A stretch of 64,000 bases of DNA, from NCBI RefSeq assembly GCF_004104055.1, contig NZ_QOVJ01000010.1, positions 1 through 64,000 of the forward strand. The letters run 5' to 3'. Each line of letters starts with the position of its first letter. Positions within the stretch are counted from its first letter, which is position 1. This stretch comes from Leeuwenhoekiella aestuarii (lineage in GTDB: Bacteria; Bacteroidota; Bacteroidia; Flavobacteriales; Flavobacteriaceae). The notes below the pieces were generated by a model. The model was given only the letters and a program-made list of their open reading frames with translations, ran no database searches and was not told the origin of the DNA. Shown one piece after another: positions 1-50,562 of this stretch. The translations under genes were made by a program, and so were the position numbers.

Positions 1-1006
1 CAATATTGAGATTGTAAGCTGAACCTTGCAAGGCAAGCAGGTCAGACATTCCGTGGTCATTATAATCTTTATCGGTAAGGCTCAAAATGGTCTTACTGGT
101 CTTTTCGCACAACCAGAAAACAGCCTTTGCAGTCAATTCTTTGGTCCAGTCACAGGTACCTACCAGCCAGGGTGTTTTAACACGTGTAAGCTCAGATGCG
201 GCTGCATCGTCAAGTACAAAGGTGGTATTCTCATGCTCCTGTAAATAAGTTGCAGGAACTATTGAAGATATCTCTCCTTCAATAGTCTCTTTTAAAATTT
301 CGGCTTTGTTTTGACCCCATCCTAAAAGCACAATGCGTTTGGCGTTCAACACCGTATTGATCCCCATCGTGATCGCTTTTTTAGGCACATTAGAGAGCCC
401 TCTAAATGATCCCGCTGCATCGGCGCGGGTCAGGTAATCCAGAGTAATCATACGGGTACCGGAATTGAAGTGTGAACCCGGTTCATTAAAACCAATGTGA
501 CCGGTACGACCGATTCCCAACAGCTGAAAATCAAGTCCGCCGGCAGCTTTAATTTTGGCTTCGTAAGCGATACAAAACGGTTTGATCTCTTCCTGATCTA
601 TCGTCCCGTCAGGGATGTTTACCTGATCAGCCGGAATATCCACGTGATTGAATAAATGCTCGTGCATAAAATAATGGTAACTCTGCACGTCAGACTTATC
701 CATTGGCCAATATTCATCCAGATTAAAGGTGATCACATTTTTAAAACTTAATCCTTCTTCCTTATGCATACGTACCAGCTCTGCATACACATTAATAGGG
801 GAAGAGCCTGTGGCCAGTCCCAAAACGCATTTTTCACCAGCAGCTTCTTTACTGCAGATCAAATCAGCGATTTCCTGAGCTACAATAGCCGAAGCCTGTG
901 TTGATTGTTCAAAACTGATGTTGTGTATCTTCTCAAAACGGGTCTCTTCAAACTTACCTGCGGGTTCGTAGGTGATTTGTTTGCTATCTTCTGAAGTTGT
1001 TTTCAT
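1..1006 (-). CDS. nagB: Glucosamine-6-phosphate deaminase-like protein, two-domain type (partial, 3' end outside window)
   Basis: The frame starts at ATG 1006 and is still open at base 1, so at least 335 residues are present and the C-terminus is missing. NagB-type motifs are visible: GLATGSSP near residue 60, FNLDEYW near 90, and LGIGRTGHIGFNEPGS in the middle, which carries the HIGFNEP active-site loop. NagB converts glucosamine-6-phosphate to fructose-6-phosphate and ammonia in the cytoplasm. Ordinary NagB proteins end near 260-270 residues; this one continues with a segment containing KTPWLVGTCDW and HGMSDLL. That pattern is known from long Bacteroidota NagB-like proteins that carry a C-terminal PIG-L/LmbE deacetylase-like domain, which would lie outside the window. 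It is the last visible gene of the minus-strand operon, 19 bases after the GH95 gene, and fits use of GlcN/GlcNAc released by the GH89 enzyme. Confidence 0.85.
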   Translation of the reverse strand, partial: MKTTSEDSKQITYEPAGKFEETRFEKIHNISFEQSTQASAIVAQEIADLICSKEAAGEKCVLGLATGSSPINVYAELVRMHKEEGLSFKNVITFNLDEYWPMDKSDVQSYHYFMHEHLFNHVDIPADQVNIPDGTIDQEEIKPFCIAYEAKIKAAGGLDFQLLGIGRTGHIGFNEPGSHFNSGTRMITLDYLTRADAAGSFRGLSNVPKKAITMGINTVLNAKRIVLLGWGQNKAEILKETIEGEISSIVPATYLQEHENTTFVLDDAAASELTRVKTPWLVGTCDWTKELTAKAVFWLCEKTSKTILSLTDKDYNDHGMSDLLALQGSAYNLNI

Positions 1007-1025
1007 AATTAATAAAAAACTTAGA

Positions 1026-3527
1026 TTAGTTGTTTTTGGTTGTTATCTGGTACGTCTGGTCTGCTTCTACTGAAAAAGTAGTAAGAAAATAGTCGCCCTC
1101 TGCTTTTGACTCGAAAATTTTGGTATCCGCTTCAACAGGTATTTGCGTGCGCAAGGTGATTTTTCCGGTATTGTTTGTTTTTATCTTAGCATATTGAAGT
1201 CTTCCCTGTAACCATTTTATGTCTACTTCAAAATTCCCACGGGCTTTTAATCCATTTACCTCACCGTCAGCCCAGGCATCAGGTAGGGCAGGGAGCAGGT
1301 GCAATTCGCCCAGATGGCTTTGCAACAGCATTTCGGCTATGCCGGCAGTCGCTCCAAAATTCCCGTCAATTTGAAATGGGGGATGCGCGTCAAATAAATT
1401 GGGGTAGGTACCACCTTTATGTTCTTTAGAGTACGGGTCTACATAAAACATCAATTCGCGAATCATTTTATAGGCGTGATCGCCATCCAGTAAACGTGCA
1501 GCAAAATTGATTTTCCAGGCTTTACTCCAACCGGTTCCTTCATCACCACGCAGTTCAAATGTCTTTTCCGTAGCTTTTGCTAATTCCGGAGTGGTAAGCG
1601 GTGAGATGGAATTACCCGGATGTAGTCCAAATAAATGCGAAACATGACGATGATGCGGGTCTTCTTCTTCAAAATCCAGATTCCATTCCTGCAACTGGCC
1701 TTTAGCACCTATTTGATATGGAATCAAACGGTCCTGAGCTGCGCTAAGTTCTTGTCTAAAGTCTGCATCTTTTCCTAAAATTTCAGAAGCTTTAATGGTG
1801 TTGCTAAAGAGTTCGCGAATGATGGCGATATCCATTGTCGCACCTTCGGTAACTGCATATCCTTTGCCGTCTACCAGAAATAAGTTTTCAGGAGAGGTGG
1901 AAGGAGCGGTAGTTAATTTGCCATCGTGTTCTACCAACCAATCCAGCGTAAAAACGGCTGCTTCTTTCATCACCGGGTATACTTTAGCGAGATAGTCTTG
2001 ATCCTGAGTAAAGGCATAATGCTCCCACAAGTGCAACGTAAGCCAGTTACCGCCCATATACCAATTGGCCCATAACGGGTCGCCGTCACCGCGATCTCCA
2101 ACCGGATTTGCCGTTGCCCAGATGTCTGAATTGTGATGTAATACCCAGCCGGGTGCGTTGTAAAACTCTTTAGCTACACGGCTTCCGGTAACCGAAGCGT
2201 TTTGGATATAGGCTAAAAAGGGCTGATGCATCTCACTCAGATTGGTGGTTTCCGCGGGCCAGTAATTCATTTCGGCATTGATGTTTGTGGTGTAATTAGA
2301 ACTCCAGGGCGGGCGCATTTCTTTATTCCAAATCCCTTGTAGGTTGGCCGCAATGGCACCGGGTCTGGAAGAAGACACGAGCAAATACCTGCCGTACTGA
2401 AAATACAAAGCTTCCAACTCGGGATCGTTTGCACCTTCTGAATAATCTTTTAAACGTGTATCGGTAGGTTTATTCAATTGATCATCTGAAGTTTTGCCTA
2501 AATCAAGCGCGACCCGTTGCATATAAGTCGAAAAATCTGCAATGTGATCTGATTTTAACTGCTCAAACGACTTGGCCGAAGCCGCCTGCATAAATTCGCT
2601 AGCCAATCTGGCTTCGTCAAGTCCGTCTTTGTCCGGGCATTTGTCAAAACCGTTAAAACTGGTTGCTGCGGTAAGTAAAATAACCACTTCTGAAGCATCA
2701 GCGATCGCGAGACTAGTATCCTGAGTGGTTAGTTTGCCATCTGTTTTCAACACTTTGATTCGGTATTGAAAACGCATGCCGTTGCATCCTTCAGGGTCGT
2801 CGTAAGTAATGGGTTCTACACCTTCGGGATTGTAGTAATTGGGATTTACGTTTGCCGGGGCCTTGCCGCTTACCACCAATTCCTGATTTTCGGTCACCGA
2901 AACTTCAGCGCGCAATTGGCTTTCTGCGGAAAGATGCAGGTTTAGAGCTTGAGCTGCATCTGCAGTCAGTTTCATGACCAAAACATTATTAGGAGCAGAA
3001 GTGAAAAACTCCCGGGTATAGTTCACACCATCAGACTCAAAAAAAGTCGTTGTGATCGCATGTTCTATATTCAAGGTACGTTTATAGGCGTTTACCGAAT
3101 CATTTTTAAGTTCCTGATGCAGTAATAAATCACCCATCGGCATATAGGATTGGGTATAATAGCCCTGCATTTTTTTAGCCAAAAGCGTCGCCTGTGCATA
3201 GTCTTTGTCAAAAATCGCCTCGCGCAGGGGTTGCAAATAGGAAGCCGCATCGGGGTTGATACTTTGTGGAACCGGGCCGCCGCTGTACAGCGAACTTTCA
3301 TTTAGCTGAATCAATTCGTCACTTACGCGCCCAAAAACCATCGCACCTATTTTACCATTTCCTAGCGGCAGGGCCTCAACCCACTCGCGTGCAGGGGCAT
3401 CGTACCACAATTCTGGCAATTCAGCCTGAGCGGTTTCAGGATCTGAATTTTCTTCATTGGTACAGGAAAGCAGTGCAAAGAGCACCAGAAGAAGCAACGA
3501 AGAACTACGGAAGAACATTTTTTTCAT
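1026..3527 (-). CDS. GH95 alpha-L-fucosidase / alpha-L-galactosidase, lipoprotein
   Basis: 833 residues. ATG 3527 is preferred to a TTG one codon upstream. The N-terminus is a lipoprotein signal ending in the lipobox LFALLSC, so the enzyme is probably membrane-anchored, facing the periplasm or cell surface. The mature part opens with the GH95 signature [19 protein letters not shown]. Catalytic-region motifs of the family are in order: NINAEMNYW (the two Asn that activate water), TAPSTSPEN (general acid Glu) and FQIDGNFGA (Asp). Length is normal for GH95. The family is inverting and includes alpha-1,2-L-fucosidases and alpha-L-galactosidases; sequence alone does not separate them. It lies 38 bases downstream of the GH2 gene and 19 bases upstream of nagB in one operon. 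Confidence 0.9.
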
Positions 3528-3565
3528 CAATCGGTTTTTAAAGTAAAGGATGCCATCCTTTTAAA

Positions 3566-6685
<3,120 letters not shown>

Positions 6686-7816
6686 TTATATTTTGACGTA
6701 GATTTTCTTTTTGTCCATCCAGTAGCCCAGTGCCCAGCACAGAAGCATAAAGACAATAGCCGTCATCAGCACTCCAAAGGAACCCGGGAATATGCGTTGA
6801 AAAATTACTTCACTTACCCATTCAAAAGCATCCTGATTTTCATTTACTGGAATCAGGCGCAGCGTGATGTAAAACAGTTCGGAAAAGAGATAAATCACCA
6901 GAGGATTTTTGCCAAAGACGTTGAAGAAATTTGTGCCAAATTTGATGTTTTTCAGTTCTACCGCAAAGATGAGTGCTGCCAGCATAGACAGGTTAAGGCC
7001 TATGGTTAACATCGCAAATGGACTCGTCCATAACTTTTTAGAAAGCGGAAAAATAAGCGCCCACCATTCTGCAAGGGCAAAAACGAGAAAACCGGCCAGC
7101 ATCAGCTTGGCAATGGTCTCATAAGATTTGCCTTTTCGTCTGATAAATACACCGGCAAGGTAACCGGCAAGAACGTTTACAATACTGGGCAGCGTGCTCA
7201 GGATACCTTCTGGGTCAAAGGGAATAGCATCTTTTTTATAGATGTGGCCTTCGCCCAAAATAGCATAGTCAAATTGTGCCGCTGCATTGGTCGCCATCTC
7301 GAGTTCGCCTCCTGGTTCGCCAAAGGCATATAGAATTCCCCAGTAAGCGAGTAGGATCACCACACAAGAAATAAAAATCGCCCTGACTGAAAAATACCGT
7401 ACCATCACCGCACCAAAAAAGTAACACAGCGCAATACGCTGTAAAACGCCCATTACTCGGGTTTCTGAAAATGGAGATAATTGCAGTTGCCCGTCATTGA
7501 ATTCAAAAAAGGGAAACCAGTACATCAGGAATCCCAGCAGGAAGATGATGGCAGTACGTTTAAGTACTTTTTTCCAAAAGTCTGCGGGTGCAGCTTCCTG
7601 AAAGCGACGCATCGAGAAGCTCATGGCATTACCCACCGCAAACAGAAAGGACGGAAAAACTAAATCTGCCAGCGTAAACCCAAACCATTGTGCGTGCACC
7701 AGATATGGATACATAGCTGCACCGGTGCCCGGAGTGTTTACCAGGATCATCAGGGCGATGGTAAGCCCTCTAAATACGTCGAGCGATAAAAAGCGTTCTG
7801 AAGTTTTTACAGTCAT
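6686..7816 (-). CDS. HGSNAT-like / DUF5009 multi-spanning membrane acyltransferase
   Basis: 376 residues from ATG 7816. The frame is open further upstream, but that part overlaps the GH89 gene and is out of register with homologues. The protein starts SERFLSLDVFRGLTIALMI, the usual opening of the heparan-alpha-glucosaminide N-acetyltransferase domain, and shows about ten hydrophobic segments. Motif HAQWFGFTLADLVFP near residue 41 places a histidine where human HGSNAT has its active-site histidine. HGSNAT moves acetyl from cytosolic acetyl-CoA across the membrane to the amino group of a terminal alpha-glucosamine. The gene directly follows the GH89 gene (10-base gap), the enzyme that in lysosomes acts next in the same pathway. 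The acceptor here is inferred; many Bacteroidota paralogues have no known substrate. Confidence 0.78.
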   Translation of the reverse strand: MTVKTSERFLSLDVFRGLTIALMILVNTPGTGAAMYPYLVHAQWFGFTLADLVFPSFLFAVGNAMSFSMRRFQEAAPADFWKKVLKRTAIIFLLGFLMYWFPFFEFNDGQLQLSPFSETRVMGVLQRIALCYFFGAVMVRYFSVRAIFISCVVILLAYWGILYAFGEPGGELEMATNAAAQFDYAILGEGHIYKKDAIPFDPEGILSTLPSIVNVLAGYLAGVFIRRKGKSYETIAKLMLAGFLVFALAEWWALIFPLSKKLWTSPFAMLTIGLNLSMLAALIFAVELKNIKFGTNFFNVFGKNPLVIYLFSELFYITLRLIPVNENQDAFEWVSEVIFQRIFPGSFGVLMTAIVFMLLCWALGYWMDKKKIYVKI

Positions 7817-7826
7817 AGGCTGGTTT

Positions 7827-10079
7827 TTAATAGTTATAGTCAATAGGTGGCATAATCTGGGTGATCGGAGCAATTTTGCTTCGGTATTTAGCGTGAAGCT
7901 CTTTTGCGATTTCAAAGGCATTGCCGCTGGGTTCGGTAGGGTAGGATTCTTCTTTATTAACCCATTTCCATTCCCATTTTTTGATTTTTTCATCAAAAGC
8001 CTCCTGATCAAAATTCCCCCAGCTTGCTTCAACATCGGTAATAAATTGTTGCCAGCGTGGTTTGTAAAAATCATCCATTACACCGCTCCATTGGCGACAG
8101 GAGTATTCGTGCAACGGATTATCAGGGCCTCCCCAAAGGGTGATGAGGTCGCGGGCATTACGCTCGTAAAGCGCTTTTTCTTCAGGAGTGATGCCCCAAC
8201 TTCGGGCATCTGCGATCCAGGGTCCAAGCAGAAAATCATTGCGTGTAGCGAGTAGTTTGTCCAGATCACTAATGAGTGTCAGGAGTTCGTCGCTGTGTTT
8301 TTTAAAGGCTTCTTTGTCGTTGTTTTCATAAGCGATACGCATTTGCTGTTGCACCGGTAGGGCATAGTTGGCAAGCACCTGACGGCTAAGGTCTACCAGG
8401 TCGTATTCAAAACCATCTGAATTTTTAAACGTATCACTGGCGCCAATAAACAGGTCCCAGGCAGGTAGCAAATCAAGCGGATCGTAATTCATCTTAGTAC
8501 GTGCCCAGCGGCGGTACCCTTCAAAAGTAGGTCGTGCTGCGATGATAGACTCGGCACCGTCACGTATGGTAGTACCGTTATAGGCGGTTGCTACCAAGAT
8601 ATCCCAGGCTTCAAGAATGCTGTCGTTTACCGCACCATAGCGGTTGCGGGTATAGTTCTTTAGCCAGGACTTGAGTTCGATAGGCGTATCCCGCCAGGTA
8701 TTATCGGTCATCAACTCGTAAAGCACCGGGTTTTGTTCAATGGCTTCCATCGTAAGACCAATACCTTTTAAATTTCCCGAAGTGCTGTCGTTTAAGGCCA
8801 GTGCCGGCTGTTCGGCAACGGTCTCGATACGGCCAAACATACTGATGTTTCCGCCAAAATTGTGCAGCATATTCCAGATCCATTGTTTGCCGTAGAAAGC
8901 TTCGGTCTGCTTCCAGACGGGTTCGATTTCGGTGGCCAGATCGAGAATGATCATACGATCATCAGGCACTGTGCTGAGCAAGCCTTTGATTTGCGGCGTT
9001 TTCCAAAAGTCTTTATGACTGTAAAACAACCAACCCTGCATCACCCAGGTTGCTTTGGGATCTGCGGCTTTCATTCCTTCAAAAATCTTTTCGCTCAACT
9101 CCCCCAAATATTTAGGATCGTCCGAGGGCGGCTCATTCTCATTAAACGTATCTGCCGTGTAGAAGTGATCTGTACCAAAAACTTCCTCCTGTTTTTCTAA
9201 AAAGCGTTTTCCAATTTCTGCGAAAAGCGGATCTTCTGCATCAAGGATATAGGTGTCTCCAAAATCATTGCCCCAGTTGGTCTTTTTAAGATCGGCATCA
9301 GGGAAGAATTTTTTAAAGGAGGCAGGCACATGTCCCGTAAATGCCGGAAGCACGGGTTTCATCCCCAATTCGCGCGAACGCTTTAAAATCTTTTTTTGCA
9401 GGTCGCGGTGGCTTTCTTTCCAGCTTTGCGGAAGCGGACCGCCCCAACCGTCCAGATTTCCCATCCAAAACCACGAGAAATACGACGGGCCGCTGAAGAA
9501 ATCCTTAAGGTCTTCATCGGTAAAGCCGTAGGATTTGTAAACTTCGCCCCAGATGTATTCTTCGCCGGTAATAGCCAGAGGCATATTGATGCCGTGAAGC
9601 GCCATCCAGTCGATTTCCTTTTCCCAGCGCTCCCAATCCCACCAGCTCATCGAGTAGTTGAACGTGCAATAGTTGAGGTAATAGCGATATTCGTATGGTG
9701 ATTCTTTGCGCACCGGTTGCTCGGGCAAGGGCAGTGATTCCGGGAAGTTGAGGTTGGTACCATTCCAAGTGATCTGCCCGTGCGCATACTCTTTGATGTA
9801 GTAATACAGCGCCGAGGCGATAGCGACCCCATTGTTTCCTCTCAAACTGATTTTACCATCCTGAGCTGCAATTTCAAAAGCCTGATCGCCGGCACCGGGC
9901 AGCGAATCGATGATAAACTCCTCTGCATATTCGGGAACAACCCGATTCAGCAGGCCTTGGTAGGGAGCTTCTGCTGCAGGCGCTTGTTTGGTTTCCTTTT
10001 GACAGGAATTCAGGCCGAAAATAAGTAGCAGGCAACTTGCAAGCTGCACGAATGATGAATAATTAAGTTTGAGAATCAT
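7827..10079 (-). CDS. GH89 alpha-N-acetylglucosaminidase (NAGLU family), lipoprotein
   Basis: 750 residues with a lipoprotein signal ending LLIFGLNSC. NAGLU hallmarks are clear: NYCTFNYSMSWWDWERWEKE near residue 135, HGINMPLAITGEE, the tryptophan-rich FSWFWMGNLDGWGGPLP, the first catalytic Glu in DTFNENEPP and the second in GIGLTMEAIEQN. The family hydrolyses terminal alpha-linked N-acetylglucosamine from heparan-type chains or from alpha-GlcNAc-capped glycans. Length and motif order match human NAGLU. It sits 23 bases after the inositol oxygenase gene and 10 bases before the HGSNAT-like gene, whose product would convert alpha-GlcN ends into the alpha-GlcNAc ends this enzyme needs. Confidence 0.93.
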   Translation of the reverse strand: MILKLNYSSFVQLASCLLLIFGLNSCQKETKQAPAAEAPYQGLLNRVVPEYAEEFIIDSLPGAGDQAFEIAAQDGKISLRGNNGVAIASALYYYIKEYAHGQITWNGTNLNFPESLPLPEQPVRKESPYEYRYYLNYCTFNYSMSWWDWERWEKEIDWMALHGINMPLAITGEEYIWGEVYKSYGFTDEDLKDFFSGPSYFSWFWMGNLDGWGGPLPQSWKESHRDLQKKILKRSRELGMKPVLPAFTGHVPASFKKFFPDADLKKTNWGNDFGDTYILDAEDPLFAEIGKRFLEKQEEVFGTDHFYTADTFNENEPPSDDPKYLGELSEKIFEGMKAADPKATWVMQGWLFYSHKDFWKTPQIKGLLSTVPDDRMIILDLATEIEPVWKQTEAFYGKQWIWNMLHNFGGNISMFGRIETVAEQPALALNDSTSGNLKGIGLTMEAIEQNPVLYELMTDNTWRDTPIELKSWLKNYTRNRYGAVNDSILEAWDILVATAYNGTTIRDGAESIIAARPTFEGYRRWARTKMNYDPLDLLPAWDLFIGASDTFKNSDGFEYDLVDLSRQVLANYALPVQQQMRIAYENNDKEAFKKHSDELLTLISDLDKLLATRNDFLLGPWIADARSWGITPEEKALYERNARDLITLWGGPDNPLHEYSCRQWSGVMDDFYKPRWQQFITDVEASWGNFDQEAFDEKIKKWEWKWVNKEESYPTEPSGNAFEIAKELHAKYRSKIAPITQIMPPIDYNY

Positions 10080-10102
10080 AACAGGTATTACTAAAAAATG
10101 AT

Positions 10103-10966
10103 CTAAAATTTCAGGGTGTCCGGTAAGAATTTGGCAGCCAAATCCTCATAATAGGGACGCAGTTCTTTTACGTTTGGTGGGGTAGGAGCCTTGGAGTACA
10201 AATCGTACGGATTGAATTTTTCTACCCATTTAAACATCTCGTGATCGTGAGCACTCATCAGGTGATCGTAAGCTCCTTCGCGGTGTTGCGAATAAAACGA
10301 ATGATACCGTATCATATACAGGGCAGGATCGGGGAGGTAGTCTTTTAAAATATGATAAAGATATTCATCGTGACCCCAGGACATATGTACTTTATCCAAT
10401 CCGCAATACGGACTGTATACACCAAATTTGGTATTTAGTTCTTCATTTTTGTAATCGGGGTTCTGTTTAAAGAATTCCGGGTACACGATTTTGTCTGAAA
10501 AGGCACAACCTACAGGGAATGTGTCTCCAACAACGGCCCATTGGGGTTCGCCAAAAAGACAAAGTACTTTGCCTAAATCGTGCAAAAACCCCGTTAACAC
10601 AAACCAGTCTGAATGTCCGTCTGCACGTATCGCTTCAGAAGTTTGTAGCAAGTGCTGGGTTTGATCCAGATCAATATCCGGGTCAGAATCGTCAACGAGG
10701 GTATTTAGAAACTCAACGGCATCCCAAAGTGACATCTCCCGGCGGTTAAACTGCAGAAAGTCTTTTTTCTTTTCAAGCACAAAATCATAGGTCTGATTGA
10801 TGTGATTGATGCGGTAAAATTCTTTTACCGTGTCGCGGGCAGGAGCCTCGTAATTGCGAAATTCTTCCTTGGCTTTAGGAGCCTCTTCAGGATAACGACG
10901 TACCACATCATCTTCCCATTCATCAAGACTGCCAAGCGGTTGCGCGTTTTGATTGCTATCTTTCAT
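10103..10966 (-). CDS. myo-Inositol oxygenase (MIOX)
   Basis: 287 residues, no signal peptide, cytoplasmic. All six di-iron ligands known from mammalian MIOX can be placed: His in QTQHLLQ, His-Asp in GFLHDLGK, His in SWGHDEY, His in IRYHSFYSQ and Asp in FNPYDLYSK. Length is close to the roughly 285 residues of animal MIOX. The enzyme opens the myo-inositol ring with O2 to give D-glucuronate. It is best known from animals, plants and fungi and is less often described in bacteria. It lies between a sodium symporter gene and the GH89 gene, so inositol could be imported and oxidised. The glucuronate could enter UxaC, encoded at 51.4 kb; the fructuronate steps UxuB/UxuA are not in this window. Confidence 0.93.
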
Positions 10967-11065
10967 AAATATAAATTCAGGTTAAACAGTTCTTTTAATT
11001 CTTCATTTTAGAGGCACATGTGGCCAATTCAATTCCCGCTATGCGGGTTTCATCAGTCAAAGCAT

Positions 11066-13225
11066 TTAAGACCCGAGGGAAACCATCAGGTAAAGTAATC
11101 CAATAATGAGTATAACAATGAGACAGGCCAGCAAGAAGCCGGTACGGTCTTTTTTATTCCAGGTATAGATTTCCCAATTGCTGTTTGGGAATAAAAGTTT
11201 TTCGGTGGTGGGCTGATTCTTCAGAATGCTATTGTCTACTGCGCGGGTACGCATTTTACGGTAAAATTCAGCTAAATGTTTATCTGAATCCGGTTTAGTT
11301 GCTAAAGCGATAAGAAACAGCACCAAGAATGGGAATAACAGTCGAATTCCCAGTCTTATGGTTTCGTTTAAGGCATATGGGTTTTTTGAAAGATCCCACC
11401 CCAAACTGTCCAGCAGGTACAATTCAAGATAAATATAACCGCGGCTGTAGGAGGTACCGTCTTTCTCGGTCGTAACCCCTTTAGACCAAAATATAGCCTG
11501 TCGCGGCATGGCATAATCCACAGCATTTGTACCGCCCAGCGCAAGTTCTTCAGGTTTACTGATCTGTTCTTTTTCGCTTTGCGGAAGCTTTTCCCATTGC
11601 GCGATATCGTGTATGCGGTTATCCAGATCGACTTCCTTTACCTCATAATTTCGGGTTACAATACGGGAATCGGTAAGCTTCGTAAGGCTTTCATCGGTAC
11701 GCATCGCCGGAAAAATATTAGGTAACAGCGTCGGAATTAGATAAAACAAGGTAAAGGTGAGCAGAATCGAACTCCACGCGGCAATTCGGTTTGCTCTTCG
11801 CCATTTTAAGCCCAGCCAGAAGGCGGCTACAAAGACCACAAAAAACTCCCAGATGAACTTTAATATCTGTAAAATCGTGTCAAATTGAGTCGTAATGATT
11901 GCCGCCCCAATTAGGAATATAGCTCCCGAAATACGTGCGGCCCAGATGTAATGCCTGGCAGATTTTTCCGGAAAAAAGTATTTGTAAAAATTGTTAACCA
12001 CCAACCCGGACACGGTAATCATCAGGCAGTCTGCTGTAGACATTAAAGCGGCCATCAAACTGGCAAGCATCAGCCCTACAAGGCCCAATCCCAGAGGTGC
12101 TAATAGTTGTGTGGTGGCGTGACCCCAAACGAAATCGGAGTTCATGATTTTACCGCCATAAAGCAATATGGCACAAAGGCCCACCATTCCCCACAAGATG
12201 GTCACAATACGCTTCATAAACGTACCGGTCACAAAGCCCGTACGCGCGGCGTCTTCACTTTTTGCGGCTCCCGCAGTTACGAGTTGATTAGGCTGCGCGA
12301 CAACTGTCATCCCAGATACTAACGCGGCCATAACTATGAAATACCAGGTAAAATCTAAGGTTGCAGGCGAACCAAAAATTTCAAAAGTACTTTCGGGCAA
12401 TTGCTCGTGCAGATTCGAAAGCGCATCCATCATTCCGCTGCCGCCAAATTGCTCATTAATTGCCGACCAGGCAAAAGGAATGAGAATTATAGAAAGCAAA
12501 ATGATAAAAATACCCTGAAGCAAATCAGTGTAAAAAGCAGCTTCGAGTCCTCCCATTGCGGTGTAAAACAGAACGATGAAACAGATGGTCCAGATAAGTA
12601 CATCTTCAGAAAAATAACTGAATAACGCCCGCGGATTTTCCTGTCTGAGTTCGGCTAATTCCTGTTTCTCAGCTTGCGAGAGGTAGGTGAAGTTTTCGTT
12701 AGATAATTCAAAAAGGCGGTCTGCTTTTTCTTTTTCGACTTTTTCAGTCACAGTCAGTGCGGTATCCGGCTTTCCGGTCATAGCCATTGCGGTTGTGGTA
12801 ACCGCTTTATACCCTACAGAGAGCAAGCCCATCATCCCGATGGTGCCCACAAGAGCATAAGTTGCGGCCATTTTTCGCGAAGCGTAACGTTGCTCGTAAA
12901 AATCACCCATTGTCGTGATGCGCAGCCGTCGTAACCACGGAGCTGTGATCCAAAATAAAGGAGTGGCAAAAAGCATTAAAAGCGAACTCCAGATTCCGCT
13001 GGCGCCGTTCTTGAAGGTTGTTGTTGCTACACCTGCCGGACCGTCTGCTGAGGTTGCCTGCCCAAAACTGGCAAATGTTGAAAAAAGTTTTCCAAACTGT
13101 CTGCCGCCCAGAAAATAATCTTCCTCCTTTTTAATCTTCAGGCTAGATCGTATACCGATATACACAATGACGCCGAAGTACAGCACCAAAACTACAATAT
13201 CCAGATATGACAAGCCTAAAACCAT
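11066..13225 (-). CDS. Sodium:solute symporter (SSS/SLC5 family)
   Basis: 719 residues, about 13-14 hydrophobic segments. It opens LSYLDIVVLVLYFGVIVYIG and continues with EEDYFLGGRQFGK and FASFGQATSADGPAG, typical of solute:sodium symporters with the LeuT fold. MSTADCLMITVSGL in the middle matches the region that contributes to the sodium site. It is longer than the usual 500-550 residues because of two hydrophilic insertions, near residues 165-205 and 500-575; long forms like this are common near sugar loci in Bacteroidota. The start lies 2 bases after the GH28 stop. SLC5 members carry sugars, uronates or myo-inositol; the adjacent MIOX gene makes inositol a reasonable guess for the cargo. 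Confidence 0.88.
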   Translation of the reverse strand: MVLGLSYLDIVVLVLYFGVIVYIGIRSSLKIKKEEDYFLGGRQFGKLFSTFASFGQATSADGPAGVATTTFKNGASGIWSSLLMLFATPLFWITAPWLRRLRITTMGDFYEQRYASRKMAATYALVGTIGMMGLLSVGYKAVTTTAMAMTGKPDTALTVTEKVEKEKADRLFELSNENFTYLSQAEKQELAELRQENPRALFSYFSEDVLIWTICFIVLFYTAMGGLEAAFYTDLLQGIFIILLSIILIPFAWSAINEQFGGSGMMDALSNLHEQLPESTFEIFGSPATLDFTWYFIVMAALVSGMTVVAQPNQLVTAGAAKSEDAARTGFVTGTFMKRIVTILWGMVGLCAILLYGGKIMNSDFVWGHATTQLLAPLGLGLVGLMLASLMAALMSTADCLMITVSGLVVNNFYKYFFPEKSARHYIWAARISGAIFLIGAAIITTQFDTILQILKFIWEFFVVFVAAFWLGLKWRRANRIAAWSSILLTFTLFYLIPTLLPNIFPAMRTDESLTKLTDSRIVTRNYEVKEVDLDNRIHDIAQWEKLPQSEKEQISKPEELALGGTNAVDYAMPRQAIFWSKGVTTEKDGTSYSRGYIYLELYLLDSLGWDLSKNPYALNETIRLGIRLLFPFLVLFLIALATKPDSDKHLAEFYRKMRTRAVDNSILKNQPTTEKLLFPNSNWEIYTWNKKDRTGFLLACLIVILIIGLLYLMVSLGS

Positions 13226-13227
13226 AA

Positions 13228-14640
13228 TCAGTTTGCGATTTTTTCGAGTTGAGTTTTTCCTTTTTTAACAATGCTTTCCAAATGTTCAAAGGCCGCCGTT
13301 CCATTAAAATTATCAAGAACCAGCGGGGTTATATTTTCTGCGTAAAGTGCGTTTCCATAATAATCAGGTCTTTGGGCTCCCCAATTTACCGTGGTGTTTG
13401 AAATGTACACATTACTGGCGTTTACCATATAAAAACCTGCGGTCTGCTCGCCTATAAAGTCATCGTCTTTGCAGGGTCTGCAGTCGTAATAACCCCCAGG
13501 GTATTCGGTGGTTTTTGAAACCTCCAGGTCAATATCGTTAAAACGAATATTATCCAGAAGATCTGTTGATGCCGCTCCCAGAAAAATACCGTTTTCACTT
13601 TTGCATCTGATGTTTGCGAAGGTGATGTTAGAAACTTTACCAATACCGGCTTCTTTAGCTCCGGGTTTTAACCTCCAGCCTGCATCTTTGTGATTGTGTG
13701 AGGCGCGGGGATAGGCTGTAATGTAAATAGGCTCTGCCATTCCCCACCAAACGTCAGAAAACTGCTTGCATTCTACCATGATGTTAGAGAAAATAATGTC
13801 TGACACGGTGCCCTCGTCCCGGTTTTGAATACCTATACCTCTGCAACTGCCGGTAATGATGCAGTTGTTAAAGGTAACGTGGCTAATGGCATCCATATTT
13901 TCGGAGCCAATTTTAATCGCACAGGAAGTGCTGATCAATGTACAGTTTGAAATGACGATATTTTTGCAGGGACCCAATTCTTCATATTCCCTTCTGTTTT
14001 TGAGGCAGATACAATCGTCACCTGATTCGATATGGCAATTGCTGATGCGTACATTTTGGCAATGATCGAGATCAATACCGTCGCTGTTGCGTACTTTGAT
14101 ATCATTATAGATTGAAATGTTTGCGATTGAAACATCATAGCAACCTATAAAATGCAGCGCCCAGTAAGCAGCATTACTTACGGTAATGCCGTGCATCTTT
14201 ACGTTTTTACAAGATACCAGGGTTAGAATGTGCGGTCTGGGATCTATCGTCTCAAAAGGCTTGAGCTCATAGGAGTCGTGTAGCTCATCACCCATGAAAA
14301 AGATGCCATTACCATCTATAGTGCCACCGCCTGTAAATGAAATCTGGCTGAGATTTTCTCCACCTATCCAGATGGTGCCTTCTCCCAGATTTTTTCTGAA
14401 GGCGCTTTTAGTATAAACATCTTCGTCAGGGTAGGCTTTTAGCACAGCACCCTGCTCCAGATGTAATTCAATATTTGATTTGAGGTCAAAAGGTCCCGAA
14501 AGGAACGGTTTACCGGGCGGAATGACAACTTTTCCGCCACCAAGATCGGCACAATGATCTATGGCCTTTTGAATGGCCAACGAATTATTCGTAAAGTCAT
14601 CATTTACGGCACCAAAATCGTTTATATTCGTTATATTCAT
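13228..14640 (-). CDS. GH28-family right-handed beta-helix protein, no signal peptide, atypical active site
   Basis: 470 residues beginning MNITNINDFGAVNDDFTNNS, the standard GH28 start but with no export signal, so it is probably cytoplasmic. The fold is marked by GGGKVVIPPGKPFLSGPF and repeated short beta-helix rungs. The first two catalytic blocks are present: NSDGIDLD (NTD block) and ESGDDCICLK (DD block). At the expected GHG block the sequence reads STSCAIKIGSE, and the RIK block is replaced by RGIGIQNRD. Activity on ordinary polygalacturonan is therefore doubtful; an exo-activity on an imported small saccharide is possible. It is the first gene of the minus-strand operon, divergent from the GntR regulator, with an inverted repeat 8 bases upstream of its start. 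Confidence 0.8.
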   Translation of the reverse strand: MNITNINDFGAVNDDFTNNSLAIQKAIDHCADLGGGKVVIPPGKPFLSGPFDLKSNIELHLEQGAVLKAYPDEDVYTKSAFRKNLGEGTIWIGGENLSQISFTGGGTIDGNGIFFMGDELHDSYELKPFETIDPRPHILTLVSCKNVKMHGITVSNAAYWALHFIGCYDVSIANISIYNDIKVRNSDGIDLDHCQNVRISNCHIESGDDCICLKNRREYEELGPCKNIVISNCTLISTSCAIKIGSENMDAISHVTFNNCIITGSCRGIGIQNRDEGTVSDIIFSNIMVECKQFSDVWWGMAEPIYITAYPRASHNHKDAGWRLKPGAKEAGIGKVSNITFANIRCKSENGIFLGAASTDLLDNIRFNDIDLEVSKTTEYPGGYYDCRPCKDDDFIGEQTAGFYMVNASNVYISNTTVNWGAQRPDYYGNALYAENITPLVLDNFNGTAAFEHLESIVKKGKTQLEKIAN

Positions 14641-15623: not shown

Positions 15624-17240
15624 TTAATAACCGGGGTTTTGGCTAATTGTCTTACCGGAAGCATCAATCTCAGACTGTGGTACGGGTCTCAGAAGATTTT
15701 TCTCGGTAATTGCATTGTTAAGCGCTGCGTGCGGGTTGTATTCTAAAACGCGTGATATCAAAGTACCGGTACGCTTTAAATCCATCCAGCGGTTTACTTC
15801 GCCTATAAGTTCACGGGCTCTTTCATCTAATATCAACGCGATATCCACATCACCTGCAGTAAGCGGAGTTGTGATACCGGCACGTGAACGTACGGTATTA
15901 AGATAAGTGGCAGCTGCACCGGGATTATTATTTTGAAAAGCGGCCTCGGCTGCAATAAGATAAGCTTCAGCTCCGCGCATCATTACCATATCGCGATCGC
16001 CTAAAGCACGCTCATTGGCGTATACGAAAGGAGCTCCCGGATCTTCAAATTTCTTAAACATAGGGAAGTGTACATTTGTCACTCCGTCGTTAACCAAATA
16101 CTCATCGGGATTAATGACTGCGTAAGGCTTGCTATCTATACGTTCCTGACTCCATGCTGTTTTAGGAAAGTAAATGGCGGTGTCTCCTACTTCAAGTCCG
16201 TCTTCAGCCACATCAGCATACATAACATATCGTAAGGTTTCTTCATTACGGGTGTCTTCTTCATCAAACATATTGAAGAAGTATGGGGTAGGCATTCTTC
16301 CTATACCATTTTGATATAAGCTACCACGAGCTAAACCGGGATAGTTAAAGTATTCAAATTTGTATAGTAAATGTTTGGTGTTACCCCAGCCTACACTTGA
16401 ACTCTCGCTTCCAAAAAGGAATGAAAAGATCACTTCGTCATTGCGCTGGTTTTCGATATCTACCACATCTGCAAAAGTAGTTTCAAGGGGGTGATTGGCA
16501 ATTACAGTTTCTGCTAAAGAAATTGCGAGGGTATAATCATCAGATGCTGCGAAAGGCTTATAGCCACGGGTTAAAAGCACCTTAGATAATAGGTGGCGGG
16601 CAGCATCTTTAGAAACACGACCGTATTCGTCGGGGGTTTCATCAACAGCGCTAATGGCGTCATTTAGATCATTAACAATTAGTGTATATACTTCTTCTTC
16701 AGACGCACGCATAAAATCAGACTGAGCTGTAGTGATGGGTTCTGTAACAAGAGGTACTCCTCCGTAATTTTCTACCAGATTAAAATAAGACCAGGCTCTG
16801 AAAAATTTGGCTTCACCAACTCCTCTGTTTTTTAAACTTTCTTCTACACCTTCAATCAAATCAGCGTTTTCAAGCAGCGTATTTGCGGCAGCGATCTGCT
16901 TATATTGGTTAGCCCAATAAACCTGCATCACGTAATTTGATGCGTTCATATCTACATAATCGTTTATCGCATCAACACCAGTAAGAGGAGAAGCGCGGGT
17001 CACAATATCAGTACCGAGATCTTCCAGTACATAAAGCATATCTGGTGCATAACGGGTGGTGTTGTCACGTGTTACTTCGTAGATATAATTAACGAGTTGT
17101 GGAAAGCTTTCTTCATTTTCTCTTGAAGATGGAATACTTATAGCCTGTCTGTTTGTTTCCTCAAGAAAATCATCGCAACTCGTTACCAGCGTACCGGTAA
17201 GCAGAAGTGCTAGAGCTGAGGTATAAATTGATTTTTTCAT
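15624..17240 (-). CDS. susD: SusD/RagB-family nutrient-binding outer-membrane lipoprotein
   Basis: 538 residues with lipoprotein signal ending LLTGTLVTSCDDFLE. The N-terminal SusD-like part contains the TPR-like helices (QYKQIAAANTLLENAD, then GEAKFFRAWSYFNLVENYGG). The C-terminal RagB/SusD part carries RDMVMMRGAEAYLIAAEA and LDERARELIGEVNRWMDLKRTG, both typical of the family. SusD proteins cap the SusC channel and hold oligosaccharide at the cell surface. The gene follows susC after 16 bases, in the usual order. It is separate from the glycanase operon but shares an operator-like palindrome with it, so it is the probable uptake partner. Confidence 0.95.
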   Translation of the reverse strand: MKKSIYTSALALLLTGTLVTSCDDFLEETNRQAISIPSSRENEESFPQLVNYIYEVTRDNTTRYAPDMLYVLEDLGTDIVTRASPLTGVDAINDYVDMNASNYVMQVYWANQYKQIAAANTLLENADLIEGVEESLKNRGVGEAKFFRAWSYFNLVENYGGVPLVTEPITTAQSDFMRASEEEVYTLIVNDLNDAISAVDETPDEYGRVSKDAARHLLSKVLLTRGYKPFAASDDYTLAISLAETVIANHPLETTFADVVDIENQRNDEVIFSFLFGSESSSVGWGNTKHLLYKFEYFNYPGLARGSLYQNGIGRMPTPYFFNMFDEEDTRNEETLRYVMYADVAEDGLEVGDTAIYFPKTAWSQERIDSKPYAVINPDEYLVNDGVTNVHFPMFKKFEDPGAPFVYANERALGDRDMVMMRGAEAYLIAAEAAFQNNNPGAAATYLNTVRSRAGITTPLTAGDVDIALILDERARELIGEVNRWMDLKRTGTLISRVLEYNPHAALNNAITEKNLLRPVPQSEIDASGKTISQNPGY

Positions 17241-17256: not shown

Positions 17257-20200
17257 TTAGAAAGTAAAGTTTATACCGGCCATATACGTACGTGCCATAA
17301 ATGACGCACCATAGGTATTTCTACCGGCGTTTTCAGGGTCCCAACCGTCATAGTCACTAAAGGTAAATGGGTTCTGAACTGTAGTGTACAGGCGTAGCTT
17401 TTGAATACCCAATTTTTGAATGGTCTCTTGAGGAAGCGCATAACCCAGGGTCATGAAACCAACTTTTACGAAAGAAACATCCATATTTTTGATAGCTCCC
17501 TGGTATGGTCCTCCGTTACCGGGTTGAAACCAGTTATTAGTAGGGTTCTCAGGTGTCCAGTAATTGGTGTCGTAACCATTCCACAAACGAGCAGGTTCAC
17601 CATCATATGAGAATGCGCGGGCATTGTGAAAATTACTGGAGATCGTTACGCCCTGACTGGTATATACAAAGAATGAGAAGTCAAAGTTTTTATAGTTCAT
17701 CGTGCTGGTAAAACCTCCGGTCCATTTTGGAAGTGGATTTCCTAAAACTACCCGGTCACCTTGTTCAGTAATTTGTCCGTCACCATTAACGTCAACTACA
17801 CGTACCTGCCCCGGCTTCTGACCGAAAGATTCAGCTTCTGCAGCCTGATCCAGTTGCCAGATTCCGTCGTACTTAAAGCCATAAAGTGATCCTGTTGGTT
17901 CTCCTACACGGTGAATAAAAGTTCCACCCTGTGCTCCAAAAATGATTTCATCACTATTACCATATAGATTTACGATCTCATTACGATTACTGGCAAAATT
18001 GAGGTTGGTGCTCCAGGTAAAATCTTCATTGTCTATAATTTTAGCATTAAGTCCTACTTCTATACCTCGGTTGCGAGACTCCCCGATATTGTCAAAGGTT
18101 CCTCCAAAACCGGTTGCTGTGGGCAAAGGTCTAAAGAAGATGATGTCCTTAATATTACGGTTGTAAACATCAACACTACCAGTCAAGCGGTTGTTTAGGA
18201 AACCAAAGTCAAAACCAACGTTTACTTCTGATGTGCGTTCCCAGGTTAGATCTTGGTTAGCAAGACCATTAACAAATAGTGTAGATACACTTGCATCGCC
18301 AATATTAGTATAACTCGATTCTAGTAATGAAAGGGTTCCCAGCGGGTTTAGTCCTCCACCGATACCGTTGTTACCAGTTTGCCCGTAGCTTAAACGTAAC
18401 TTAAGATCTGAAAATACCTTTTGATTACGCATAAAATCTTCGCGTATCACACGGTAAGCAAATGATGCTGAAGGGAAAAATGCCCATTTGTTATCATCAG
18501 ATAATACTGAGGCTCCATCGTATCTACCGGTAAGGGTAAGAATGTAACGGTCCATCAAATTATAATTGATACGTGCTGTATAAGATTCTAGCGTCTGTCT
18601 TTTAAACCCGCTTCCATACGAGTTCACATTTGAACCGGCTCCCAGATTATAAAATAAGAAGTTGTCTGATGTGAAGTTTCTAACCTGAATACCATAGGAT
18701 TCATTGTCCTGTAAAAATCTTGAATAGACAAGTGTTGCTGCCAGGCTGTTGTCATTGTTAATATCTAAGCTGTAATCAACAATGTTATCCCAAGTATACG
18801 AATAGTCTAAGAAGTTGTTTACCTCTGCACGGGTATTACTCTGGTTACCAATTGCACTTTTGGTGTACAGACCACGATATTCTCCCACACGGGTATATTT
18901 GATGTTAGGTGCAAACTTTGTAGTAATGCTAAGTCCTTCTAACGGTTTAACGCTAAGGGAAATGTTACCAATAAAATTAATGTATTTGTTTTCTAATTTC
19001 CAGTTTTGGGTATCAAAAATAGGGTTACTTAACTGGGTCTCTTTTTGAGTAGGCAGGAACAATAAATCCCCGTTATCGTCATAAGCTCTTCCGATTGGCT
19101 TTAAACGATACGCACTTCTAAAAGCTTCTAAACTACCTTCGTTTGTTTTTGCTAAAGTGATGTAGTTATCGTATCCAAAGGTTAACCAATCAGTAAGATC
19201 ACTTTGAATATTTCCTTTTAAAGTATAGCGATTAAAATCTTCACCGTAAACGGTTCCCTGATCCTGAGTATAGCCCAATCCGGCAGCATAAACTGTATTT
19301 TCATTTCCTCCGCTTATATCGAGGGTATGGTTTTGTTGAAATCCGTTGCGCGTGATGAGGTCTACCCAATCTGTACTCACACCATTTGCAATGTTTTGAA
19401 GTTCTTCATCACTTAGGTAGTCATTAATATTCACCGCTGCTGCAGAGTACTGGCCATAGTTACCGTCTTTGTTAGAAGCAAACTGGTTACCTACTACTAC
19501 ATCTCTAAGGAAGGGAATGTAGCTCTTACCATTAAAAACAGGTGGCAGGTTATAAATTTCTTTAAAACCTACGTAGTTATTATAACGCACAGTCATTTTT
19601 CCTTCTTTCCCTTTCTTGGTCTGAATAATAACAACCCCGTTTGTGCCACGCGAACCATAGATTGCAGCGGAAGCCGCATCTTTAAGTACATCCATACGCT
19701 CAATGTCAGCGGGATTCAGGAAGGAAATATCGTCAACAAAAATTCCATCTACTACAAATAACGGGTTTTGACCAGGGCTGTATCCGCCATTTCCAGAACC
19801 TGTATTAATAGTATTTGCACCTCTTACGCGAATGTTGAAGCCTCCTCCACCGGGTTTGTTATCTGTACGTTGTACCGTCACACCGGCTACCTGACCCTGT
19901 ATAGAAGAAACAGCATCTACTTTGTTAGTTTGTTCAAGCGTTTCTGCGCTAACCGTAGATACAGATCCTGTAAGGTTAGAGCGCTTTACTTTACCATAAC
20001 CAATAATAGCAACCTCTTCAAGAGACTGTATGTCAGTTTCCAGATTTACAGTAAGTGAAGTCTGGTTTTGTACAGGTACTTCTTGAGTCAAGTAACCAAC
20101 ATAACTAAATACGAGTACTGCACCCGGCTCAACCTGTAATTGAAATGAGCCGTCTAAATCAGTAATAGTACCGGTATTGGCGCCTTTAATACTAACACTT

Positions 20201-20379
20201 ACACCTGGTAAAGTTTCTCCAGATTGTGTGTCGTAGACCACTCCCGAAATCGTTTTCTGTTCATAGCTGAAAGAAATTTCTGCAAATAGAGGAGCAGCCA
20301 TAATTGTGGTTGTACTCAATAATGCCAAAGTCACTAACGTGATTTTTTTAAGCATCCTGAGTTGTAAAAATGTTCTCAT
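17257..20379 (-). CDS. susC: SusC/RagA-family TonB-dependent outer-membrane transporter
   Basis: 1040 residues. A signal sequence is followed by a carboxypeptidase-regulatory-like domain (ISGVVYDTQSGETLPGVSVS), a TonB box region, the plug with PLFVVDGIFVDD and the SusC hallmark MDVLKDAASAAIYGSRGTNG, then a long 22-strand-type barrel ending in ARTYMAGINFTF with the C-terminal aromatic residue expected of outer-membrane barrels. It imports oligosaccharides bound by SusD using TonB energy. It heads a two-gene operon with susD; a palindrome matching the one before the GH28 operon lies 50 bases upstream of the start. Confidence 0.96.
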   Translation of the reverse strand: MRTFLQLRMLKKITLVTLALLSTTTIMAAPLFAEISFSYEQKTISGVVYDTQSGETLPGVSVSIKGANTGTITDLDGSFQLQVEPGAVLVFSYVGYLTQEVPVQNQTSLTVNLETDIQSLEEVAIIGYGKVKRSNLTGSVSTVSAETLEQTNKVDAVSSIQGQVAGVTVQRTDNKPGGGGFNIRVRGANTINTGSGNGGYSPGQNPLFVVDGIFVDDISFLNPADIERMDVLKDAASAAIYGSRGTNGVVIIQTKKGKEGKMTVRYNNYVGFKEIYNLPPVFNGKSYIPFLRDVVVGNQFASNKDGNYGQYSAAAVNINDYLSDEELQNIANGVSTDWVDLITRNGFQQNHTLDISGGNENTVYAAGLGYTQDQGTVYGEDFNRYTLKGNIQSDLTDWLTFGYDNYITLAKTNEGSLEAFRSAYRLKPIGRAYDDNGDLLFLPTQKETQLSNPIFDTQNWKLENKYINFIGNISLSVKPLEGLSITTKFAPNIKYTRVGEYRGLYTKSAIGNQSNTRAEVNNFLDYSYTWDNIVDYSLDINNDNSLAATLVYSRFLQDNESYGIQVRNFTSDNFLFYNLGAGSNVNSYGSGFKRQTLESYTARINYNLMDRYILTLTGRYDGASVLSDDNKWAFFPSASFAYRVIREDFMRNQKVFSDLKLRLSYGQTGNNGIGGGLNPLGTLSLLESSYTNIGDASVSTLFVNGLANQDLTWERTSEVNVGFDFGFLNNRLTGSVDVYNRNIKDIIFFRPLPTATGFGGTFDNIGESRNRGIEVGLNAKIIDNEDFTWSTNLNFASNRNEIVNLYGNSDEIIFGAQGGTFIHRVGEPTGSLYGFKYDGIWQLDQAAEAESFGQKPGQVRVVDVNGDGQITEQGDRVVLGNPLPKWTGGFTSTMNYKNFDFSFFVYTSQGVTISSNFHNARAFSYDGEPARLWNGYDTNYWTPENPTNNWFQPGNGGPYQGAIKNMDVSFVKVGFMTLGYALPQETIQKLGIQKLRLYTTVQNPFTFSDYDGWDPENAGRNTYGASFMARTYMAGINFTF

Positions 20380-21230: not shown

Positions 21231-22100
21231 TTAGTACATATTGTTTAAAGCAGTAATATCATTAGCGTTGAATTCACCATCTTCACTAGCACTAAAGCAA
21301 GCCAGCATAATAGATGTTGAGTCATACCCGGTTGGAGTTCCCGAAATGTGGTTAGTATCTCCACCTTCATTTACATTTTGACCACAACTTTGTCTGCTAA
21401 ACCAGTCTGTGTGTCTAAATCCTACAGAGTGACCTATTTCATGAGTTAATACGTGCTCAACGACATTCGTGTCATAATTAGTAAGGCCATAAATCTGTAC
21501 AAATTTAAAAGGCAATCCATTACTAGGAAAACCAGCGCTACCACCTGCACCACTAGGGTTGTTGACGGTGTTGTTATAGACAACCATGTCTTTACTTTGA
21601 TAATCTGTACCAAAAGTTAAATTGAAACTAATGCTTACACCACTTAGACGATTATAGTTTGCTACTGCCCACTCAAGTGCTGTACGTTCTTTTTGGCTCA
21701 AAGCCTGGCTGCCGCCAGTATACCCAATTATCGAAATCGTGCGTCCCTGACTCACTAAAGCAGATGTACTATATTGTTTAGAATCTCCTTTACCATCTTT
21801 AGTTTGCTTAATGTTAGCGGTCATTTCAGCTAATTGATCTGGAGTTACAATAACATCTTCTTCTAAGAAAAGTCTGGGCTCTGAAGAACCGTCAGGAAAG
21901 TAGAAGGCGTCCCAACGAATATAATTAGTATTCATTCCTAAATTTTCAACCTGATCAATGATGGCTTGTGAAACCTCAAGATTAGTGGTAGGTCGTGCAG
22001 CTTCAGTTGTGCTTTCTGAAGCCTCTTCAGAACAAGAAGCAAATACCATTGAAATTCCCAGGCTAAAAAGGCCTACTTTTTTAATTGTTTCTGATAACAT
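21231..22100 (-). CDS. HEIGH-type zinc metallopeptidase (M57-like), lipoprotein
   Basis: 289 residues. The N-terminus is a lipoprotein signal ending in FASCSEEAS. The catalytic motif HEIGHSVGFRHTDWF near residue 220 is a metzincin-like HExxHxxGxxH zinc site, and the HEIGH core is the signature of the dual-action HEIGH metallopeptidase family. Just before it lies LTNYDTNVVEHVLTHE. Upstream, IIGYTGGSQ and LEWAVANYNRLSG are usual for these Bacteroidota secreted proteases. Substrate is unknown. It is monocistronic, between tRNA-Arg and clpS, with its own terminator; no cognate inhibitor or secretion gene lies beside it. Confidence 0.85.
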   Translation of the reverse strand: MLSETIKKVGLFSLGISMVFASCSEEASESTTEAARPTTNLEVSQAIIDQVENLGMNTNYIRWDAFYFPDGSSEPRLFLEEDVIVTPDQLAEMTANIKQTKDGKGDSKQYSTSALVSQGRTISIIGYTGGSQALSQKERTALEWAVANYNRLSGVSISFNLTFGTDYQSKDMVVYNNTVNNPSGAGGSAGFPSNGLPFKFVQIYGLTNYDTNVVEHVLTHEIGHSVGFRHTDWFSRQSCGQNVNEGGDTNHISGTPTGYDSTSIMLACFSASEDGEFNANDITALNNMY

Positions 22101-49545: not shown

Positions 49546-49637
49546 ACTCTACCATACAGTACAGGATAAGTTTCAAAAAGAGTTCTTTAATTTTGAGTAC
49601 AATTCCTATTTGAAATAAAATCATTTCAGAAATTTTA

Positions 49638-50555: not shown

Positions 50556-50562
50556 GAACATT

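Follow-up and report, generated by a model that had tools for sequence, protein, structure and literature searches.

A myo-inositol oxygenase locus of Leeuwenhoekiella aestuarii as a putative utilization system for the head group of plant-type glycosyl inositol phosphorylceramides

In the lysosomal breakdown of heparan, HGSNAT acetylates alpha-linked glucosamine (GlcN) and NAGLU then carries out the hydrolysis. Relatives of both enzymes are encoded next to a myo-inositol oxygenase (MIOX) in the DNA considered here, the first 64,000 nucleotides (hereafter, the window) of contig C10 (NZ_QOVJ01000010.1; 88,424 bases) of the 4.43-Mb genome of Leeuwenhoekiella aestuarii. The genes belong to a polysaccharide-utilization locus (PUL) that occupies positions 1–20379 and comprises a SusC/SusD pair, a FadR/GntR-type regulator, and an operon of carbohydrate-active enzymes. 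From its gene content, and from that of related loci, we consider it rather probable that this PUL serves to utilize the glycan head group of plant-type glycosyl inositol phosphorylceramides (GIPCs), or the inositol(phosphate) glycans released from them.

The best described GIPC head is GlcNAc(a1-4)GlcA(a1-2)inositol-1-phosphorylceramide—GlcNAc being N-acetylglucosamine and GlcA glucuronic acid—and GlcA is given as the first sugar in all the characterised plant GIPCs, to which GlcN, mannose (Man), galactose (Gal), and arabinose (Ara) are added (PMC8099651; for this paper, as for the others cited by such numbers, the source is an excerpt). GlcA-inositol phosphorylceramide is described as plant specific, with the GlcN forms being thought to arise by deacetylation (PMC9113257); fucose is also listed among the GIPC sugars, one passage naming plants and algae (PMC12201980). 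Inositol-lipid metabolism in gut Bacteroidetes is the topic of PMC9246714; among titles and abstract openings, a coverage that left most subscription journals and bioRxiv outside, no bacterial GIPC locus was found.

A previous sequence-only reading of the window had placed a GH89 enzyme, an HGSNAT-like acetyltransferase, a NagB-type deaminase, MIOX, a beta-galactosidase, and an alpha-fucosidase/galactosidase within one operon at 1–14640, and each of these genes matched its family on the minus strand. That operon proved to be the greater part of the full PUL, since the regulator and the SusD/SusC genes extend the locus to about 20379. From 14640 down to 2 the genes follow one another with intergenic distances of 2–99 bases, as the first eight lines indicate:

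13228–14640, minus strand: GH28-like enzyme (GH28A), candidate uronosyl-inositol hydrolase (PF00295, 111 bits; no signal peptide by eye)
11066–13225, minus strand: SSF-family symporter of 719 amino acids (aa), SSF8 (PF00474, 94.8 bits)
10103–10966, minus strand: MIOX (PF05153, 364.5 bits, profile positions 2–249 of 249)
7827–10079, minus strand: GH89 alpha-N-acetylglucosaminidase (PF05089, 498.2 bits; lipoprotein-like N-terminus by eye)
About 6686–7816, minus strand: HGSNAT-like membrane N-acetyltransferase (HGSNAT_cat PF07786, 32.6 bits against a cut-off of 22; 7.8e-8)
3566–6682, minus strand: GH2 beta-galactosidase (NCBIfam beta_gal_Bga2A, 1041.1 bits against a cut-off of 999)
1026–3530, minus strand: GH95 enzyme of the alpha-L-fucosidase / alpha-L-galactosidase type (PF22124, 609.3 bits)
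2–1006, minus strand: NagB-type deaminase half of a probable NagB-PIG-L gene (PF01182, 75.3 bits; NCBIfam PRK02122, 495.8 bits), cut by the contig end
14726–15463, plus strand: FadR/GntR-type regulator, divergent (GntR 62.1 bits, FCD 59.6 bits)
15624–17240, minus strand: SusD-like surface glycan-binding lipoprotein (PF07980, 1.2e-29)
17257–20379, minus strand: SusC-like TonB-dependent receptor (TIGR04056, 827.7 bits)

The argument builds on gene families, conserved gene order, co-occurrence, and conserved catalytic residues, all of which are established here. MIOX matches the inositol oxygenase 2huo of the PDB (E 2.5e-81), and all 14 of what we take to be the iron and substrate residues are identical to those in the 2huo chain. 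The GH89 protein matches the alpha-N-acetylglucosaminidase 4xwh (1.2e-161), has three NAGLU domains above cut-off, and keeps both segments bearing the presumably catalytic glutamates. The HGSNAT-like protein is related to human HGSNAT (phmmer, 7.3e-23), with the segment of the presumed catalytic histidine being conserved; since it scores 168.8 bits against the NagX model, under the equivalog cut-off of 480, we do not claim that name. Its open reading frame (ORF) as listed (6686–8074) overlaps the GH89 gene; a relative in locus L034 starts with MTVKTSERF, from which start the coordinates given above were deduced. The "possible inositol symporter" of the sequence-only reading is indeed an SSF protein, a remote relative of SGLT1; its cargo, like the ligand of the regulator, we infer.

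We surveyed 296 genomes of the order and 345 of the class, of which 13 (by handle) were in both, so that 628 different genomes were covered. In the order sample the MIOX profile was matched by 98 genomes at E 0.001, only 16 of them exceeding 300 bits and the rest being short partial matches; GH89 was present in 17 genomes and accompanied by MIOX in 12 (p 1.4e-14), so that a true MIOX occurred in 12 of the 17 GH89 genomes versus 4 of the 279 others. Both genes were on one contig within about 27 kb in 11 of those 12, the remaining genome (G133) having them on different contigs. The class sample contained MIOX in 29, GH89 in 14, and both in 9 genomes (p 8.9e-8)—that is, MIOX in 9/14 GH89 genomes versus 20/331 others—with the two sharing a locus of that same extent in 7 of the 9. 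A chance arrival of MIOX at GH89 loci, the survey outcome that according to the sequence-only reading would have spoken against a GlcN(Ac)-GlcA-inositol or GIPC substrate, is thus rejected by two samples, the co-occurrence lying far beyond chance and usually involving a shared locus; and that substrate idea gains comparative support from the survey and from the loci found in other families.

The same figures bear on the most conventional explanation of the gene set, that of a PUL for a glycosaminoglycan of the heparan type or for mucin alpha-GlcNAc which MIOX had joined by chance. GH89, HGSNAT, and NagB are what such a locus would be expected to contain, and GH89 and HGSNAT do lie side by side with no MIOX nearby in G159, G212, and G272; but among the 10 minus-strand PUL genes scanned (the contig ending at base 1) we recognised no sulfatase and no heparin lyase or other polysaccharide lyase, and because of this, together with the MIOX link, we regard such a target as very improbable.

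GH28A, and not GH89, is the tightest genomic partner of MIOX. The GH28A clade was found in 17 of the 628 genomes (10/345 in the class sample, 10/296 in the order sample) and is discrete, every match having E<=5e-178 (all E<=1e-178 in the class sample) and none further appearing up to the 1e-60 limit; outside the window's own genome the identity was 54–60%. In 16 of the 17, a MIOX gene was on the same contig, no more than about 10 kb away: in 9 of the 10 GH28A genomes of the class sample, versus MIOX in 29/345 overall (Fisher p 5.5e-10), and in 10 of 10 in the order sample (p 6.6e-15), which p-values, like those above, are inflated because the surveyed genomes are related. The class-sample GH28A genomes span five families, or four once G366, the sole genome lacking MIOX, is removed. 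G366 has GH92, a protein family u16, GH89, HGSNAT, SusC, SusD, GH28A, and a metallophosphatase in a row; since MIOX needs O2, an anaerobe would gain nothing from it, and our guess is that G366 is such an organism. Plasmid records matching GH28A numbered 195, all below 60% identity, with the best at about 33% among the 30 matches listed. More distant MIOX proteins (45–49% identical; L130, L131, L125) adjoin an SSF gene with no SusC/SusD in the 20 kb read, and probably represent plain inositol use.

The AlphaFold model of GH28A (mean pLDDT 90.8) finds its nearest folds in exo-polygalacturonases and a galacturonidase, and the catalytic Asp187, 208, and 209 of the GH28 family are invariant in the 16 sequences compared. 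An atypical GH28, this protein lacks the polygalacturonase histidine (GHG) and R-x-K motifs, which are kept in none of 24 GH28A locus sequences (a redundant set, some being identical), and by these motifs it would not count as a polygalacturonase; the window's own pectin-locus GH28 (61677–63155) keeps both. In polygalacturonases His223 and Arg256/Lys258 lie near the cleavage site, the latter pair at subsites -1/+1, and rhamnogalacturonases are stated likewise to be devoid of His223 (PMC8952511), so that loss of the histidine alone does not exclude a pectin substrate. An uncharged partner, inositol for example, might account for the missing R-x-K pair. The sequence-only reading had seen no enzyme for cleaving GlcA from inositol, and in this it may have been mistaken, GH28A being the best candidate for the step that would free the inositol. 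A second clade, GH28B, about 26–35% identical to the window's GH28, occurs in MIOX loci (L161:8071-9633, L122:6305-7828, L120:3393-4922), and in G271, G406, and L102 is present with no GH28A in the stretch read.

These motifs also bear on the possibility that GH28 and MIOX share a regulator but no substrate molecule: plant or algal debris would yield uronic-acid oligosaccharides along with free inositol or the inositol of phytate, and a hexuronate regulator would keep together MIOX and a GH28 acting on pectin-type galacturonic acid (GalA). The products of both enzymes would indeed enter the hexuronate pathway; UxuA is found within some MIOX loci and phosphatases in some; a pectin/galacturonate-like cluster lies on the same contig; and the glycoside hydrolases of G566 suggest other plant glycans. 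We nevertheless judge this explanation unlikely, if deserving of attention, in that GH28A lacks the motifs retained by the pectin-locus enzyme, its tie with MIOX is specific (the 16 of 17 genomes), and HGSNAT and GH89, which would have no role on pectin or phytate, recur in the same loci.

To compare the related loci we read 12–54 kb around each, with genes called by a longest-ORF script and labels assigned by hidden Markov models built from these same loci, for which reasons an absent label is no proof that a gene is absent. At this locus the window's nearest relatives are found in Leeuwenhoekiella species and in a Zunongwangia (MIOX 91–96% identical), and the gene order is kept among them (L032, L034–L038, of which L035 is L. 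palythoae and L038 L. marinoflava) at protein identities of 82–99%, which conservation argues against a chance arrangement, though only some of these loci have GH2 and NagB. Farther away, G373, G465, and G627 carry MIOX-SusC-SusD-metallophosphatase-HGSNAT-GH89-GH92 beside LacI, SSF, and GH28A, with GH28B being added in G373 and G465, GH43 in G373, and the mannonate dehydratase UxuA in G465. G002, G148, G018, and G261 combine GH89, SusCD, two GH92, a metallophosphatase, MIOX, GH2, HGSNAT, SSF, two GH28, and GH51, a 1343-aa protein of G148 being a hybrid two-component regulator. G271 has UxuA, HGSNAT, SSF, MIOX, GH89, GH115, GH28B, and GH92; and G406 has SusCD, GH89, HGSNAT, GH28B, MIOX, and UxuA, the last of which is found inside the MIOX locus of L102 as well. 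Small forms are of two kinds, GntR-GH28A-SSF-MIOX and LacI/SusCD-SSF-MIOX-GH28A; the first is seen in L040, which also has a purple acid phosphatase-like gene, and in G605, which has GH92 and matches GH115 weakly (52.7 bits), the second in L080 and L105. The odd one, G566, holds GH28A, GH28B, MIOX, GH92, and SusCD together with GH29, GH39, GH97, and GH106. Two further families recur: the secreted-looking u16 (about 186–202 aa; G002, G148, G018, G261, G366; L119:8852-9412, L116:3588-4154, L145:1381-1953), with no Pfam match in the two members scanned, and u26 (about 600 aa; GH28A loci of G002 and G402; L116:801-2597, L147:17533-19359), with none in the one member scanned.

The sequence-only reading had known of no other common glycan needing MIOX and NAGLU together, but in the cores of glycosylphosphatidylinositol (GPI) anchors and in some fungal GIPCs GlcN is directly on inositol (PMC6151786), although such glycans, lacking uronic acid, are a poorer fit. 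On such a target—GPI-anchor glycans, or fungal or protozoan GIPCs with GlcN(a1-2)Ins or Man3-GlcN(a1-6)Ins—GlcN would be detached from inositol by HGSNAT and GH89, mannose would be removed by GH92, and the inositol would go to MIOX, an account that employs the whole HGSNAT-GH89-MIOX trio plus the GH92 and phosphatases of the related loci, and for which the excerpted source attests the core structures. The GH28A–MIOX tie, however, is tighter than that of GH89 with MIOX, and six loci (L040, L080, L105, G402, G605, and G566) have GH28A and MIOX with no GH89 in the stretch read; a uronidase would have no role on GPI; and the GH43, GH51, and GH115 of related loci fit a plant GIPC better, so that we find this target quite improbable.

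We prefer the GIPC reading because the loci taken together match each part of the head group: GH89 and HGSNAT for GlcN/GlcNAc, GH92 for Man, GH2 for Gal, GH43/GH51 for Ara, GH95/GH29 for fucose, a phosphatase, and MIOX for inositol; and since the uronic acid of that head group needs a uronidase, GH28A (in some loci GH28B or GH115) becomes the recurring candidate. In the proposed sequence of events, SusC/SusD would bind the head group and take it up, outer residues would be stripped off by GH95 and GH2, the HGSNAT-like protein would acetylate GlcN ends to GlcNAc, and GH89 would then release the GlcNAc. The SSF symporter would import the remaining uronosyl-inositol, which the GH28-like enzyme would cleave in the cytoplasm; MIOX would convert the freed myo-inositol to D-glucuronate, both halves thereby supplying hexuronate to the UxaC/UxuA pathway; and the NagB-PIG-L protein would handle the amino sugar.

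The compartment of the cleavage may vary. In the loci with the 719-aa symporter (the window, L032, L034–L040, and L075/G605) GH28A has no clear signal peptide, the start in L040 being ambiguous; in 10 loci with a symporter of roughly 545 aa, related to a solved sodium/glucose cotransporter, it has one (as in the homologue L120:5081-6541)—signal peptides being judged by a crude hydrophobicity measure and by eye on the N-termini, with L040 (2.27) and G402 (2.35) as borderline values. Since the signal peptide tracks the symporter type, the large SSF may import a uronosyl-inositol disaccharide and the small one free products, in which latter loci cleavage would probably be periplasmic, with free inositol or GlcA being imported. 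The farther-reaching proposal, that the GH28A clade has a specificity new to GH28, that of an alpha-uronosyl-(1->2)-myo-inositol hydrolase, and that this clade and MIOX are together at the heart of an unrecognised system by which several Bacteroidota families would eat whole plant GIPC head groups, converting both halves of the GlcA-inositol core to glucuronate in a cytoplasmic form (the window type, in which the large SSF would import the disaccharide) and a periplasmic form (the G148 and G373 types), we advance tentatively, as having somewhat less than an even chance of being right.

Several observations weigh against the GIPC reading. In the window PUL we recognised no ceramidase or phospholipase C, the absence of enzymes for releasing ceramide phosphate having been remarked already by the sequence-only reading, nor did we recognise a GH92 or a phosphatase; in this genome a homologue of the metallophosphatase is encoded elsewhere, on contig C12. 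GH95 enzymes are not confined to GIPCs; the usual GH28 target is the GalA of pectin, and no member of GH28 acting on glucuronosyl-inositol is known to us. The host probably lives in the sea, and the accounts of uronosyl GIPCs concern plants (no dedicated search having been made for marine algae or seagrass). Nine of the 10 order-level GH28A genomes belong to one genus; GH89 is not near MIOX in G402 and G566; neither GH28A nor GH28B was labelled in 67 of the 80 closest MIOX loci, some being short contigs; and a GIPC would not obviously need the GH106, GH97, or GH39 that G566 holds alongside GH29, GH97 lying also near the G373 locus. Finally, the metallophosphatase link is weak and not statistically secure. 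A looser motif identified it in 9 of 24 GH28A loci versus 8 of 78 other MIOX loci (10 genes/733 kb versus 8/1500 kb), a count in which the GH28A loci are longer on average and redundant (L075 being the G605 region, L057 that of G566, and seven being from Leeuwenhoekiella/Zunongwangia) and the controls exclude the GH28B-only loci (L102, G406, G271), the MIOX-less GH89 loci (G133a, G087, G212, G159, G272), and the C1-end stretch; a stricter motif, missing 2 of the 4 known ones, gave 0 of 13 versus 5 of 67. Because enrichment appeared with only the looser motif, we retain the metallophosphatase, which in G633, taken to be L. marinoflava, is directly upstream of SusC, as a supporting observation only.

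At base 1 the locus is cut off, since the contig ends within a duplicated NagB-PIG-L gene. A second NagB-type copy ends contig C1 (G000:C1:1375405-1376305; L134, L166), the two copies sharing 94% identity across 976 aligned bases and not differing at all in the last 76; and as contigs L032 and L038 likewise end within this gene, it appears to be a repeat at which assemblies are interrupted. In a homologue with 57% identity (L116:13807-15735) the NagB and PIG-L domains are both present. The C1 copy sits after a GH92-like gene. Upstream of SusC, at 21231–22100, an M57 metallopeptidase is encoded that is probably unrelated.

The pathway that would receive the hexuronate is encoded on the same contig:

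49722–60350, plus strand: hexuronate pathway genes (KduI/IolB family, SDR, UxaC at 51302–52786, PfkB kinase, KDPG aldolase family, TRAP transporter, UxaB-type, UxaA-type)
C10:71569–72714: UxuA, beyond the window

The cluster at 49722–60350 looks pectin/galacturonate-type and not specific to the PUL, and probably serves other substrates too. Its wider surroundings (window 48541–63998, and L180) also contain DUF4861, LacI-like, GH28, SusC/SusD, and UxuA genes.

Should the GIPC reading be correct, the locus and its relatives would name a testable enzyme for the head-group bonds, the uronosyl-inositol bond included; GH28A together with MIOX would be a genomic marker by which further genomes and samples could be searched for organisms that eat GIPCs; and the enzymes would also be tools for work on GIPC structure.

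Among the known systems, the lysosomal HGSNAT-NAGLU pair follows the same acetylate-then-hydrolyse logic as that proposed here; this locus differs from it in the MIOX and GH28-like neighbours and in that no sulfatase was recognised in the window PUL. The GH28 exo-polygalacturonases and galacturonidase (3jur, 5olp, 2uve/2uvf), the nearest solved folds, have the three catalytic aspartates in common with GH28A; but the identity in the fold alignments is 18–20%, all 24 GH28A locus sequences have other residues in place of the histidine and R-x-K motifs, and the genomic context of GH28A, unlike theirs, is MIOX. According to the excerpted report, the fungal (Botrytis) phospholipase C BcGIPC-PLC1 acts on plant GIPCs and frees inositol phosphate glycans (PMC11496612), on which this locus could feed; that enzyme, a sphingomyelinase-family lipase, only releases the head group, and in the window PUL we recognised no gene of that kind. 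With the Bacteroidetes PULs, lastly, the locus has in common the SusC/SusD pair, the series of exo-glycosidases, the local regulator, and the divergent transcription units, whereas, in departure from the usual PUL, an oxygenase would here burn the cyclitol of the glycan, and the proposed target would be not a polysaccharide but the head group of a sphingolipid.

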